Below, in pieces: positions 18,801-63,817 of a stretch of DNA of 64,000 nt (its first letter is position 1; every line of letters begins with the position of its first letter). Position numbers and translations under genes: made by a program. Origin of the DNA: Antedon mediterranea (taxonomy: Eukaryota; Echinodermata; Crinoidea; Comatulida; Antedonidae); NCBI RefSeq assembly GCF_964355755.1, contig NC_092676.1, forward strand, positions 7,298,288-7,362,287, given 5' to 3'. The notes below the pieces were generated by a model. That model was not told where the DNA came from and did no database searches. It saw only the letters and a list, made by a program, of their open reading frames with translations.

Positions 18801-21800
18801 GCTAAAAATAAACTTGGTTAAGTTTCTTTTGAGGTAAATTGGCTACAGGTACAATAGCATTAAAAAAGTATCTCTAATATTGTGTCAGTGTTGACTATGA
18901 TTTTAATAAACGAAATCCATTGATTCCACTCAACCATGCCATAGAAAATCCAATATTATATCCAGGTACAGTATTAAACAATTATATAATAATACTAATA
19001 ATGAATATAAGGCTGGAAATAGATCTATGATTCTACTTACAATTGTTCTTCAATCCAATTTTTTCAACTATTTTATCCATTGTCCATCCATACAATTCCT
19101 ACAAATAAAACCAACACAAATTCTATATTAAAACAAGAACAATAATTAAAACTGATACTGCATTGAAATATTTTATTTATTGATTTGAAATATTTTATTT
19201 ATACTGGGTAGCCTCTTCAGTCGAAGACTGGTCTCACAGAAAGCCAAGTTATGATCAGTGGTTGTGATTTACACCGGGGTAACCCCCTACTCGTCTCGTC
19301 TCTACTAGTCCTTTTCCGATAAGACTCGTTCTACCACCAGAATCATGGAGCGAGTGAGCCTCGAACCCTTGCTGATGTTATGGCTACGTAATTATGGTCT
19401 CACTGTCTTAAGCGCTCGGCCAATCACTGCATTAATATTAATAAAACATAATTGACTCATCAATCTAACAATTGGTTTTTTAATCCTGGAATTGGTGTAC
19501 TGAATAATAACACACCTCGTAAGACACAATTTTCAATGGTAGATCATACTGTTGTTGATTGCGTTTCACTGTCTGAAATGAGAAAAGAATAACATAAACA
19601 TGATTCTGAAACAATAGGATGATATAAGATTTAGAATAAGGTGTCAGCTAAATGTATGTAACTAGGGCCCCTGCCTTTACTGCTCAGCCATTTGACTCGC
19701 ATCACTTTGTATTCACAGCTGTCACCTTCTATCGAGTAGAAACTTATGAGCGAACCCACTCACCTCAAGAGAATCATCCCGGTAACCACTAATACCTTCG
19801 TCAACCGACAACAAGAATAGATTTAGACCATAGTCATAGCGTTCATTTAACACCTTCATTACATGTGCTAACACAGTGGAATCTAAAACAAAAATCATTT
19901 CATTATCAGATCTATTTATGTTGCCTTTTTACTTTTATCTGTATTTATCAAACGATAGAGTGAACTTGAAGTCAGAGAGTTGTAACTTGTCCCTGACTGA
20001 ATAATGCTCAAATTGTGCATGGAAGTCTTAATAAATTAAACAGGTCACAAAACTATTTTTTATTTTTGTTAGCGGATACTAGTAGAGAATTATCCCATCC
20101 TTATATAATAATGATACAGTACTCAATTAAAAATAATCTACAAGTAAAATAAAAATACCTTTTCCTCCAGATGCACCGATTGCGACAGTTTCTCCACGCT
20201 TGAATAACTCTGCATCAATTATCGTCTGGTGGATTTCGGTTTCAAATGCATGATAGAAGCAGTCTTTACAGAGGGCATCCCCCTAAAATAGTAATATGAA
20301 TAGTTGAACAAGATTGTGTACAACTAGATCATGTAAAAGCTGATCTTACACAATGGTATCTTGCAGTAAAGCGATTCAAACAATTCTAAACCCTATTCTT
20401 AAGCCCTGTCTACACTATCAAACAAAATGTGATGTATCCATATATATAGACATGTTGATGTCATACAGTATCACTATCAGATTTGGGCATATCACTACCA
20501 CATTTGGGCATATCACTACCACATTTGGGCATATCACTACCACATTTGGGCATATCACTACCACATTTGGGCATATCACTACCACATTTGGGCATATCAC
20601 TACCACATTTGGGCACATCACTACCACATTTGGGCATATCACTACCACATTTGGGCATATCACTACCACATTTGGGCATATCACTACCACATTTGGGCAT
20701 ATCACTACCACATTTGGGCATATCACTACCACATTTGGGAATATCACTACCACATTTGGGCATATCACTACCACATTTGGGCATATCACTACCACATTTG
20801 GGAATATCACTACCACATTTGGGCACATCACACTACATTTTTTGTCAAACTAGTTGGATAGTATAGACAGAGCTTTACACTAGTAGTAGCTAAAGTTATG
20901 TTGGATTATTTTGACAATGTAAAGACTCAGTAGTTGAAGATTTGAATTTGAAGATTTATTTATATTTGTTATATTTGATGTAGGGCATTCTGGTCATTGT
21001 TTTGAAAGGGCTCCTTATAACTCCTATAATCATAGTAGCTAATTTTGGTTTTCAGTAAGTACTATATAAAAGTACTATACGTATATATAAAAGGATAGTT
21101 TTAGTTTGGAAATGTGGAACCAATTAGTTTTATCTAGAACCACTTCAACCATCCTTCTTTTTCAATACGAAGAAATTTTATAAATATGCATTTAATTTTA
21201 ACCCTAGAAAGTATGTTTTCTCATGGAGTAGTTTTCTACTACAGAGGAAAACTTGTCCAACAAGATGACTCACATAAACAACATATTTTAAAATTACAAT
21301 TACTACTTGAACACTTTTAATGTTTAGAGTTAATACCAATGATAGTTTAAGTGGACCAAGTATTCTATATCAAGGGTCATCACATGTTGTAATTCTGTTT
21401 AATTAAACAGATGTTTTGAGGAAACTCCATCCACTTGATTTCATACAATGATAGTGAAGTTTTATATCAAAATTATAGTGTTTGTTTTTATAGTGCCTGA
21501 GATTCTTCTCCCTAAATAGTCACATCATGTCAGTGATGCCAACAATGGTGCCATACATCTGTCCACGACAGAGGATGTGTGAGCTAGTACACCGGGGTAA
21601 CCCCATACTCATCTCGAGAGACGGATTTCAAGAAGCGAACGTTTTTAAAAGTACACAAAAGCATTATTGTATACAATACTGGACCTATGGTTTAAATTAT
21701 AGTCCTTATCCGAGAAGACTTGTTCTACCACCAGAAACGGTTTAGTGGAAAAAAGACTCTAATTATGCAATAAAATTTTTTTTTCACTCCCCACAAATGC

Positions 21801-40109: not shown

Positions 40110-41851
40110 CTAATTTTGATTCTTCTTGAAATTAAAAAATTCGAATTCAATGTGATCAATTAAGTCTTTGATGGCTGGTCTTTGGTTTGGTCTGGAATGA
40201 AGGCAGGGTCCGCTGATATTCATTAGCGGCATTAATGCTTTGTTGGCGGCAATTCCTTCAATTATGACACCAAAACTGTAGATGTCTGAGGCAAAGGTCG
40301 GTGGTGTGTTGATGTTATACAGCTCTGGTGCATTTTCTGGCTGATCTTGCATGAGGTCGAAGACATCGGCTTTGTCGGTATTATTCAATTGGAAGACATC
40401 AAACGATGCTTCTGCGGTGCAAACTGAACCAAAGTCGACAATTTTTGCAGAGATACGGGGACCCTTATTGTAAATAAGAACATTCCGAGTTGCCAGGTCA
40501 TTATGAATCAAACCATTCCTCTGAATTACCTCAACTCCTTTTGCGATGTCAAAAATAATGCGAAAACAATCAATCGTGGTAATATGTGGTGAACCAGATG
40601 CTAAAGCTTTCATCAATGATGTTGATTTGAATGTTGAGTCGCCAACAAATTCCATAACAATGGCCCACTGTGTGTCGGAGGTAACTGCTTCACAAACACC
40701 ATAAACCCATGGAAACACGTCGCTTTTTTGGGATAACACCTTCATTATCCTAGCTTCAAGGGAAACTGCCAGCTTGTCGGCGAACCGATTGAATTTTCTA
40801 GACTTATTGGTTGTTGTGATGATAGCCTTAACAGCCACAAGTTTGCCGTCTCCAAGGCGATTAAGCAAAACTCTGCCATAGGAACCAGTGCCAAGTACTA
40901 TCTATAAAGTAAACACGTATACAATAATTTAAAATGTTTCTTTCTGTCATAAAAACATTTAAAGATTATCTGTCAAAAGCTTTGATTGAAGTGTTGAACA
41001 TTTCAAATTCAATTAAACCTACCTGGTGACTATCCTTCGTTGCTGGATACAGGCAATCAGATGGCAAACATTGAACATGGTTTTTAAGATTTGCATCCAT
41101 TATCCGAATTTCAATTGACATGCGTTTTATCCAGTGTTCTGAAGTTGGAGAAGTCTTGAAGTCTTGTTTGCTCCAAGTGTTACTGAACAATGATTCATCG
41201 TTATGGTGATTGCTACATCTTGGTGATGAGGTCAGTGGGCTAGACAGACTTATGTGGATGTTACTGTCCCTTCCATCTAGTGTGTATCCAATTGCCGGTA
41301 CATTATTGATAACGTCCAGGAGGCACCATTTTCTTATCCAGTTAAGAGCTAGCATTGAGTCAGGTTCGCCGTTTCTACGTCCAAAGACGCGTCCATCCAG
41401 AATTAGGAGATCTCTTGCAAATCCACATATTATACCAAATGGCAATTCTTGGTTATCGTATCCGATGGCCGATGTTTGGGGCAGGGTGAGAATAGCAATT
41501 CCATAAATGATTTGGATAATTGCTATTCTCAATGCAGGTGGTACGCTCAACCAGGTTTGAAATGATGTTTGATCATTGTCATCATCGTTGCCATTGTAGA
41601 AACAACACAGGACATATTTACTGAAAAAGCCTGAAATGGCTGACCGGCTGAAAATTAAACAAAAATATTTCGTTATTGTATTTTTGGGGTTTTTTAATCA
41701 TCATAATAATCATTATACTTCGTCATACGTTTTCATACAATTTTTTTCTCTGCTGAAAAAAACAGAATTGACTGTATGTAACATACCTGTTCTTAAAGCA
41801 TTTTTTGGGTTTCCAAGTTTTAAAAGGGGTTTTCCAGAACCTTCCAGGCAT
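40110..41851 (-). CDS. Protein kinase of unknown family, unusual N-terminal region
   Basis: Three coding exons on the minus strand: 41787-41851, 41023-41647 and 40110-40901, giving 493 aa. The ATG lies directly at a 3' splice site; non-coding first exons are likely at about 42270-42315 and from 42577. Residues 231-493 are a kinase domain: GTGSYGRV loop, VAVK (K255), helix-C Glu at about 279, HNDLATRN (catalytic Asp 365, Asn 370), DFG at 386-388, APE at 421-423, and DIYSFGV. All key residues are present, so activity is likely. HND replaces HRD, and LATRN resembles the LAARN of tyrosine kinases. Residues 1-230 match nothing I know: a basic start (KTPFKTWKPKK), then a hydrophobic Trp/Leu/Ile-rich region (about 50-135) and a Ser-rich linker. 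No death-effector domain seen. It diverges from the pseudokinase gene to its right. Confidence 0.8.
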
Positions 41852-44187: not shown

Positions 44188-47100
44188 ATGACAGCTTCTT
44201 TACGAAAATTTAAAAAGTCTGATTTTGAGTCAGGAGGACAACCATTAGGTAGCAGTGTTGTATTGAAAACATGTACTAAGTCTGGAGGTAAATTAGTTGT
44301 GAAGAGGGTGATTGCATCAGATAGCAAGGTAGAAATGTTGGTAGGCCTACAACACAGAAATATTGTCAGTCTACTAGGAAAAATAAACTATGGAATGGAG
44401 ACAGGCTTAGTTTTTGAGTACGCGATTCATGGTAATCTGTATGAATTGATAGATAAAGCACCAACCAGTATTTGCTTACCGTCGTTAAGCTTTTGCAAAC
44501 AGGCAACACGAGCAGTTGCCTACATCCACGAAAAAAATATGACACATCGGAAAATAAAATCAGCAAGTTTTTTAGTTTTTGGAAATGTTATTAAACTTGC
44601 TGATTTCAATTTGTCAGAAAAAAACACTGATGTTTTTTCAGCAGTAGGCCCGAAGGTAAGTAGCTTTAGAGATGATATGTGTTGGATGTCTCCAGAGGTT
44701 TTGAATGACAATGAAGACATTGATCACTTTAAATCGGATGTATACTCATTGGCAATTGTCTTGTGGCAGTTGTATCATATGCAGAGCCCATATAAAGGGT
44801 GGAATATTGAGGCGATATTCAATCACGTGGCTGCGAGGAAAGATCATCTAGAAATTGACACAGAATGTTGCCAAGAATTTACTAGTATGTTGCTGAGCTG
44901 TTGGAAGAAAGACCCATCTCTGAGGTTAACCGCCAATGAAATGTTAAGGTCGATCAACAAAGTAATTGTTGCTAACAATGCATCAGAAGGAACAGAAACA
45001 TCAGATACGGTAAGAATGAGTTCTCAAAGATGGAATTCGAAACAGAATATCAATTAAAATTGGAAGAAAATGCTTATTTTTAGAGTTTTTAATACGTAGT
45101 GTGGGGTAGTCCTACAGTAACACCTAACTTGCAATGTTGTCACAATCATTTTCATCACAATGAAGTGGTTGCAGATACCACCATTATTTCAGTGGTTTCT
45201 AAGGAATGGCTGTAAATTTTAATTATGCAAATTGGACTACTTGGCCAAAAATGGACGAATGTTTTGTAGCGTTTAAAAAACATGCAATTTCAAAATGATT
45301 TGTGTATTTCAACGGAGACATTTTAATGAACAAGATAATATAAAACAGACTCCTAAAAATGTTGTTTATTGTTAGCAAACATTATTATAAATGGATCTGT
45401 TATAATTAAAATAAAATGGTTCATTACCTTTGATGTTTTCACTCCTGCAGGGGTGAAATAACCGTTCAATCATCTCTTTCGACTGATGTAATTTACACAA
45501 AATATTATGATTAAAATGATATTATCAAACTTTTTAGGGTAACAATTTTATTTTTGCATTGTAATCGTATTCATTTTATATATATTTATTTCTGTCTTTT
45601 TCAAACACAAGGTAATACCGGTTAAATGTAAATTTAGAACCTGGCCACGATGTAGAGAGCCGCAGTTGGACGACCACCGAGTTGATAAAGTACGGCCCGT
45701 ATCAGAGTAAGTTCTACGGTGGCTGATTTCTACGGGTGGCTGATTTCCGCCAAAGAAAATAATTATTTTATAATAATACGGCGTTATAACGCCATAATTA
45801 GGGCGTTATAACGCCGTATTAGGGCGTTATAACGCCGTAATAGGGCGTTATAACGCCGTAATTTAGGGCGTTATAACGCCCTAAATATACAATTTTCACA
45901 CATACATGCGCATGCGTAGTACATCAACAAACCTCTCAGCGCATTCACAGATTTTAGAAAGTCACGTGGTATATTACTGGCCATCTCTGTGTCCAACTAT
46001 GCCTATGTAGTGTATGGAATCGAGTCATTTGCTTAAAAAATGTATAACATTATTCACGAGGTTTTAAATATCTAATATCAAAACAATTGTTTAAAGGTTT
46101 TTGTTAAGATAACGCAATTATAAAGTTACTGCAGGGAAGAGTTAAATTACAATTTAACTCTTCCCTGGTTACTGCGAAGATTATTTTAAACAACGAAATG
46201 TAAAAACAATGCATTAAGTTAAATGGAATACAGCTATTTTGTTTGTTTAAAATCATCAAAATAATATTATTATTTTAACAAAAACCTTTAAACGAATTGA
46301 TTCAATCCATCCATTCAAAGTCGTCGCAACTGTTATGGCTCTGGGTTTGTTGATGTACTACGCATGCGCATGTACATGTACGCGTGAACGGATTGTATAA
46401 TTATATTATATAACGCCGTATTATTATAAAATAATGTTTTCTTTGGCGGAAATCAGCCACCGTATATTTGTAACGACTTGACTTCTTTTCTTGAAATAAA
46501 TGTGTTATTTGTATATAAATAAACCCTGTCGTCGCTCATGCTATAAACTCATCACCATAGTTCATTATCATTTTTAAATATTACGAAATAATAACTGTTC
46601 TTTTTTATAGATCATATCAAATACCAACTGAAGAGGAAAAAGAGAAGTTCAGGAATTTTCTCAAAGAGTTTAGTGATAAATACAGTTCGCCTAGTAAGTA
46701 CCGCTGGATGCGTTTCCTTCTATCCGATATATTAAACATCGCATGTCTATCCCGCAAAAACATTCCTTGTCTTGAATTATTTAATGAACTTCACGCAAGA
46801 GGTAACATTTCATATGACAATGTGAGTATTCTTGAAGAAATTGCCGAAGTAACCGGGCAGCATTTAGCCATAGTGGTTGTACGTAAGTACAAAGAATGTT
46901 GCCGAAATCATGTTATGACGAGGAATCATACATTGACAAAATATCGCAAAGGATTCTTTCAGTCTCTTAATGAAATGGATGAAAATCGGTTTCCGACTCT
47001 GCTTGCTTGTTATGAACTTGAGCCTGATGATATCAGCAATATTTGGGATTTAGTTTTTTACTTGGAGAAAGAAAACAGGTTGAACTGTCATACTGACAAA

Positions 47101-47763
47101 GTTAAATTCGCAAAACTGCTAAACAAAAAAGCAGAAAGTCTATTTTTGGTAAGTAACATTTTATAAATTCTCTATTTAAATAAATAAAGTAATATGAACT
47201 TTAATAGAAATCTTTCTAAAATTGAAGAACAAATGAAAACGCTCACAAATTGAATCGAACTAGCACAGGCCTATTGACTGAACACCAACTTGAGACTAGA
47301 TATATAAACTACAGATTTATTGACTGATAGACTTTTAAATAGGTTTTACCATTCCAAATATGAATTACAATTATTTTGTATGGAGAGAGATTAAGAAAGG
47401 GTAGAAAGAGTACCCTTTTAAAAATGAATTGAAGGTACTGTATATTAGAATTATACAGTACTGTATTATTCGAATAACTCAAAAAGGCCTTGGATATACA
47501 CACAAAACATTGTATTAACAACACAATTATATTAGTAGTAGAATTAATTGACTACTAAGCATTTTTAATGCATCACTGTGCTTTGTTTGTTAACCAACCC
47601 CCTCCTTAACAAATGCCTCGAGGGGTTTATTCGAATTAAGTACAGCATCGGTGTTCTTCTTTTACATGTCGAGTGGGTGAGTATACATTATAACGTAAAA
47701 AATGATGAAAATATTTGTAATTAGTTTCCTTTTGCATTACAGGACAGTTTGAACGAAGTTTGA
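44188..47763 (+). CDS. Pseudokinase fused to tandem death-effector-like domains
   Basis: Four exons, 44188-45009, 45612-45706, 46611-47148 and 47743-47763, join in phase 0, 2, 0 and give 491 aa. Residues about 15-265 are a kinase fold: VVK (K39), HRNIV, a helix with YIHEKNMTHRK, then ADFN, MSPE (168-170), SDVYSLAIVLW, and LRLTANEM. The catalytic loop reads HRKIKSAS, so the proton-acceptor Asp is Lys122 and the metal-binding Asn is Ser127. DFG is DFN, and the Gly loop is degenerate. It should be inactive. Residues about 315-400 resemble a death-effector domain (FRNFLKEF, WMRFLLSDIL, LELFNELHARGNIS, SILEEIAEVTG, VVRKYKE). Residues about 415-480 look like a second (YRKGFFQSLNEM, ISNIWDLVFYLEKENRL, KFAKLL). 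Probably a cell-death or immune adaptor. Domain calls are by eye. Confidence 0.82.
45715..46464. mobile_element. 750-bp foldback element with TACGGTGGCTGATTTC ends
   Basis: The left end TACGGTGGCTGATTTCTACG is followed by a second GGTGGCTGATTTCCGCCAAAG; the right end reads CTTTGGCGGAAATCAGCCAC then CGTA. Further inverted pairs lie inside (GCGCATGCGTAGTACATCAA at 45908 on, and its complement near 46350-46374). Other internal features: a run of GGCGTTATAACGCC palindromes (45779-45890), and a 35-bp hairpin with GGGAAGAGTTAAATT arms (46134-46168). In intron 2 of the pseudokinase gene, starting 8 nt past the exon. Confidence 0.88.
45779..45890. repeat. Tandem palindromes GGCGTTATAACGCC
   Basis: Five perfect or near-perfect palindromic units with spacing of about 21 bp, joined by GTATTAG or GTAATAG. 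They lie in the left half of the foldback element. Confidence 0.92.

Positions 47764-55308: not shown

Positions 55309-63817
<8,509 letters not shown>

Follow-up and report, generated by a model that had tools for sequence, protein, structure and literature searches.

Within a stretch of 64,000 nucleotides of Antedon mediterranea DNA, the whole of which is called the window here, one gene raises the question of whether a kinase that has lost its catalytic residues has been joined to a module of tandem death-effector domains (DEDs), and, if so, what such a protein might do. Known death-fold kinases typically carry a death domain (DD) or a CARD, and tandem DEDs are familiar from caspases and FLIP. 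We did not recognise a kinase-DED fusion in the open-licence literature. At this locus there is good support for a tandem-DED-like module fused to a catalytically degraded kinase, and, as far as sequence can tell, the gene very probably has a pseudokinase-tandem-DED architecture. It most likely belongs to a small kinase-tandem-DED family, as a dispersed member whose kinase is catalytically degraded, judging from the gene model, from relatives found elsewhere in the genome, and from profile comparisons of each half of the predicted protein.

On the forward strand, at 44188-47763, four exons (Table 1) join into a single open frame of 491 codons and a stop (492 codons including the stop), with exon-start phases of 0, 0, 2, and 0. 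The joined frame bears out the original prediction of a four-exon, 491-residue protein with matching splice phases, in which exons 2 and 4 stand as predictions. The model calls for exon 2, since the kinase donor is in phase 0 and the DED acceptor in phase 2, and joining them directly would break the frame. If exon 4 is left out, the frame runs five codons past 47148 to a stop at 47164-47166, and an AATAAA occurs some 13 bases beyond that alternative stop. A counterpart to exon 4 was sought behind six DED exons of the C10 array described below, and no clear one was found there. The idea that a conserved donor follows the module was considered and rejected, as a GTAAG-type pattern occurs at that position in just 3 of 27 copies. 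The first in-frame Met of the window DED exon, Met339, falls inside the stretch matched by Pfam, which means that coding sequence must precede the exon; among open reading frames (ORFs) of at least 60 amino acids, the nearest candidate upstream on the same strand is the kinase exon. The probable foldback element in intron 2 contains internal repeats around GGGCGTTATAACGCC, at a spacing of 21-23 bp.

Table 1. Coordinates of features of the kinase-DED gene, numbered from the first letter of the window.
Feature	Position	Strand	Content or basis
Exon 1	44188..45009	+	Start codon and predicted pseudokinase domain, aa 1-274; donor ACG/gtaaga, phase 0
Lys39 (VAIK lysine), kept	44302..44304	+	Sequence and kinase alignment
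Lys122, replacing catalytic HRD Asp	44551..44553	+	Sequence and kinase alignment
Ser127, replacing catalytic-loop Asn	44566..44568	+	Sequence and kinase alignment
DFN, replacing DFG; Asp139 kept, Gly lost	44602..44610	+	Sequence and kinase alignment
Exon 2	45612..45706	+	Predicted 95-nt linker exon; acceptor weak by eye
Probable foldback / terminal-inverted-repeat element	45711..46466	+	Most of intron 2; ends placed by eye
Exon 3	46611..47148	+	Tandem-DED-like module, aa 306-485
DED1 (Pfam stretch, aa 334-391)	46693..46866	+	Pfam DED
DED2-like second unit (aa 415-485), starting with a YRxxL stretch	46936..47148	+	Colinear match to caspase-8
Exon 4	47743..47763	+	Predicted terminal exon, six codons and stop; doubtful

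The kinase fold that had been read from the sequence is confirmed by a match to Pfam PK_Tyr_Ser-Thr over residues 23-255 (E 2.7e-35), by which the protein belongs to the protein kinase superfamily. Two of the replacements claimed for it, catalytic Asp to Lys (HRK) and loop Asn to Ser, are present as Lys122 and Ser127. The third, DFG to DFN, also holds, with the correction that Asp139 is kept and the loss is limited to the Gly; the VAIK lysine, Lys39, is kept as well. The residue set of an active kinase (HRD Asp, loop Asn, and DFG) is thus replaced in the window protein by Lys122, Ser127, and DFN, a pattern suggesting that the kinase is probably inactive. The column that we assign to the helix-C Glu holds Lys, and the Pro and Glu of the APE motif and the Trp and Arg of the C-lobe are retained. 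Searched singly against PDB, the window sequence found FGFR4 and FGFR3 first and MAP3K12 third. Among the best 60 of 927 PDB matches to a five-row kinase profile, most are MAP3K12, ZAK, TAK1, CTR1, or RAF, but the first-ranked row carries the label EGFR and a further row is a tyrosine kinase; RIPK is absent. By these comparisons the kinase appears TKL-like, an assignment that is not settled. PADLOC returns 30 families for the kinase exon at E<=0.01 (best 5.9e-43, mad6), which we take to reflect the kinase fold, and the exon-3 module has zero matches.

A genome search with the window kinase exon, in which all 80 candidates were scored, gave 47 matches at E<=0.001. After the window copy itself, the four best belong to one array on contig C10, at 20.23-20.34 Mb, with 43-45% identity to the window kinase and E values between 6.8e-56 and 2.0e-47. 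The array holds one more match, a partial one (47% over 93 residues); the best match outside it, on C8, has an E value of 1.4e-25. On C5, at 3868855, a weakly matching kinase near DED exons looks TSSK-like by eye and was set aside as a separate neighbour. All five C10 kinase exons have a tandem-DED exon next on the same strand, across gaps of 385, 516, 181, 2660, and 384 bp, four of the five pairs being seen within one locus. In the window gene and in the C10 relatives L032, L033, and L037, the kinase exon ends with a phase-0 donor; L032 and L033 have no linker exon, their kinase and DED exons joining directly, in frame and in phase 0. L034 has a similar donor after its kinase, by eye. For L031, a GTAAG-type donor was sought after the kinase and not found, and the DED acceptor is in phase 0; for L037, which has the donor, the attempted kinase-DED join used a position lacking AG.

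Three of the four full-length C10 kinases (L031, L032, and L033) retain the Lys, the HRD Asp, the Asn, and DFG, and the remaining one, L034, is degraded, with HND and EFG. Glycine loops in the C10 kinases are noncanonical by eye, so that calling the kinases of L031-L033 active is only a guess. A kinase tree of ten rows, which left out L036 and the partial L037 and for which a long-branch warning was printed, groups the window kinase with the four full C10 kinases at support 100/99.

The window gene might be a decaying, non-functional dispersed copy whose catalytic residues drifted unconstrained. It is a single copy outside the C10 array, a large inverted-repeat element occupies its second intron, and L034 provides a further instance of a degraded relative. 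The window kinase matches 84 of the 160 columns that are invariant across the three intact relatives (L031, L032, and L033); at that level of conservation, loss of the HRD Asp, the Asn, and the DFG Gly is not improbable by drift, and, taken with the Lys in the helix-C Glu column, it makes relaxed constraint on the kinase possible. Yet 491 codons run without a stop or frameshift between usable splice sites, and the VAIK Lys, the DFG Asp, and the APE and C-lobe residues are all kept. The window DED exon is intact too; among the 150 scored matches to the module in the genome, five have internal stops and the other 145 are intact. We consider decay an unlikely explanation, if one deserving some weight.

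What, then, is the module to which the kinase is joined? The Pfam DED model matches the whole protein at E 1.5e-5 and exon 3 alone at E 7.5e-7, both scores being below the curated cut-off of 35.9 bits, and Pfam lists no DD or CARD for the protein. The same model matches 26 of 29 module copies at E<=1 (best 2.5e-10), and TRADD-N is not among the Pfam families listed for those copies. Searched alone against PDB, exon 3 gave 0 matches; only a profile of the 29 copies reached DEDs, finding the caspase-8 DED prodomain at E 7.5e-8 and then PEA-15, FADD, and cFLIP. The best caspase-8 chain score sums two stretches, and several other caspase-8 chains give one colinear match extending to profile position 152-154. 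A profile of the first half, DED1, matches caspase-8 (E 1.1e-6), PEA-15, and FADD. On these profile matches the identity of DED1 is solid, and with at least one DED by profile the protein belongs among DED proteins.

The second half of the module behaves differently. Its profile alone matched no DED in PDB, Pfam DED is found in the second half alone in just one of the 29 copies, and a comparison of the DED1 and DED2 profiles revealed no resemblance. When caspase-8 DED2 was shuffled, 0 of 500 shuffles reached the real score (28.5 bits, versus at most 21.2 for the shuffles), whereas shuffling only the part after helix 1 of that domain allowed 337 of 500 to reach it. Support for DED2 is therefore confined to its first helix, and a second DED in the module is likely by position only. 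The original prediction had placed two DEDs at the C-terminus and had proposed a search of that region with the Pfam HMM; the first is recovered by this search, below the curated cut-off as noted, while Pfam finds no second, which is suggested by colinearity with caspase-8, in helix 1 only.

The module is abundant. It matches at least 150 places in the 354-Mb genome, window included, with E values up to 1.2e-15 (150 of 408 candidates scored), a figure that sets a minimum for the places matched and does not count genes. For NACHT domains we surveyed 20 ten-kilobase loci around module copies, mainly top-ranked and with two overlapping, a span beyond which NACHT would be missed; a NACHT P-loop lies downstream of the module on the same strand in five of them. 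An ORF from each of these five loci has a Pfam NACHT match, which exceeds the curated cut-off in four and falls short of it in L011. A P-loop pattern in a sixth locus, L009, was discounted, being glycine-rich and on the strand opposite to its DED exon. One of the 20 loci, L012, carries a kinase exon of the window kinase family.

Two further kinds of sequence were noticed near module copies. A second, more distant type of DED-like exon occurs at L020 353-892, L018 6710-7312, and L021 1938-2627, with Pfam DED matches of 7.6e-5 to 0.0024 that do not reach the curated cut-off. ORFs that by eye resemble parts of non-LTR retrotransposons adjoin tandem-DED exons at L013 7614-9858 and L014 486-4141, and others lie beside such exons at L020 2966-3756 and L023 3574-8367. 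Elements of this kind are linked to the shuffling of DED/TRADD-N genes in a part of PMC8195603.

Caspase-fold matches in the genome number 33, and on C5, at 22.03-22.14 Mb, eight of them form a run on one strand. A caspase fused to the module was considered and rejected: among the caspase places compared none adjoins the module, and the caspase-type motif Q[AS]C, sought in the module loci examined, is absent from them. These observations bear on a second account, raised with the original prediction, in which the window protein recruits DED caspases or FADD directly and serves as a kinase-scaffolded death adaptor. The best solved relative of the module is, after all, the caspase-8 prodomain, and caspase-fold genes, including the run on C5, exist in this genome. 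But the 24 caspase places compared lie at least 64 kb from the tandem-DED exons compared, a comparison that may miss caspases with divergent DEDs given the share of DED candidates scored, and we think direct recruitment of this sort quite improbable.

The two halves of the gene may not have travelled together. The highest pairwise identity of the window DED, 41%, is to a kinase-linked DED of C10. In the DED tree the window DED has a long branch, occupies a weakly supported place (81/74 in the first tree), and stands apart from the C10 DEDs; a tree constrained to unite them is worse by 38 log-likelihood units (AU p 0.0009). That p value comes from a repeat of the clade test in which a distant C10 copy was out of the group and the long-branched L027:5801-6343 was removed, the refined group having been defined after the first tree was seen; the first test, with the distant copy in the group, gave p 0.00014. 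Because the kinases group and the DEDs do not, the two parts of the gene may differ in history, through exchange of the DED exon, through two fusions, or through homogenisation of the C10 array. Exon 2 and the differing acceptor phase fit exchange of the DED exon and do not prove it. Such differing histories would make this a possible case of modules being swapped within a gene family of immune type. That the kinase and DED exons are instead two neighbouring genes, their fusion an artefact of prediction, is very unlikely: exon 2 is short with a weak-looking acceptor, and the window and C10 DEDs do not form one clade, but the order of kinase and then DED recurs five more times on C10, L032 and L033 make in-frame phase-0 joins, and in the window DED exon no start codon precedes the DED.

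The explanation that we prefer overall, with a probability of roughly 0.5, is that the gene encodes a pseudokinase-tandem-DED regulator within a kinase-tandem-DED family. Sensors bearing the same module, the NACHT proteins of this genome included, would oligomerise and nucleate DED filaments, and these filaments would recruit kinase-tandem-DED proteins through homotypic contact. Intact members of the family would then signal by proximity-driven phosphorylation of their neighbours. The window protein could enter the same filaments without phosphotransfer, as a scaffold or a brake, much as FLIP, the pseudoenzyme counterpart, acts on caspase-8. By analogy with RIPK1/2 and FLIP, recruitment of the window protein to DED assemblies seems somewhat more likely than not, and for a regulator role as scaffold or brake we would put the chances slightly under even. 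It is conceivable, though doubtful, that tandem-DED NACHT receptors recruit tandem-DED kinases directly, without a FADD/caspase hub, and that dead paralogs tune the route. Were there such a direct route from sensor to kinase, DEDs here would serve kinase signalling and not caspase activation.

Several known systems share part of this arrangement. RIPK1 and RIPK2 resemble the window protein in placing a kinase at the N-terminus and a death-fold recruitment module at the C-terminus, but the C-terminal module there is a DD or CARD, which the window protein does not have, and here it is a DED module. MLKL is also a pseudokinase in a death pathway, but its domain order is opposite and, to our knowledge, it has no DED. 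In the relevant parts of PMC11507063, MLKL is described as an N-terminal four-helix bundle followed by a C-terminal pseudokinase, and RIPK1 of Ambulacraria as being without a RHIM. Caspase-8, caspase-10, and FLIP carry a tandem DED like the one predicted here, and the profile of the window module is colinear with the caspase-8 prodomain; however, the window module is C-terminal to a kinase instead of N-terminal to a caspase domain, and its DED2 is very divergent. DEDs joined to NACHT are reported from amphioxus and sea urchin in a section of PMC2575513, and NACHT ORFs likewise lie behind the same DED module in this genome, whereas the window gene has a kinase and not NACHT. Parts of PMC8195603 describe lineage-specific expansions of DED and TRADD-N with varied partners in invertebrates, echinoderms included, a pattern that the present family resembles. 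The same parts place S/T/Y protein kinases among the C-terminal partners in a TRADD-N clade; in the window protein, by contrast, the kinase is N-terminal and no TRADD-N is matched.

A kinase-DED family with both intact-looking and degraded members would provide a natural test of whether DED assemblies drive kinase, and not caspase, signalling, and the presence of at least 150 matching modules in one genome adds to that test. The family may point to immune or cell-death signalling that is wired unlike our own.

Elsewhere in the window, a second kinase-like ORF lies on the reverse strand at 40110-40901, some 3.3 kb away from the gene; by eye it has HND and DFG motifs, its Pfam match is 7.2e-22, and it is not among the genome matches to the window kinase exon. 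At 62065-62499, on the forward strand, an exon identified as TPR by Pfam contains a unit of about 23 residues repeated four times in tandem, the copies being nearly identical. A tandem repeat of short units, open in several frames, occupies 20344-20866.
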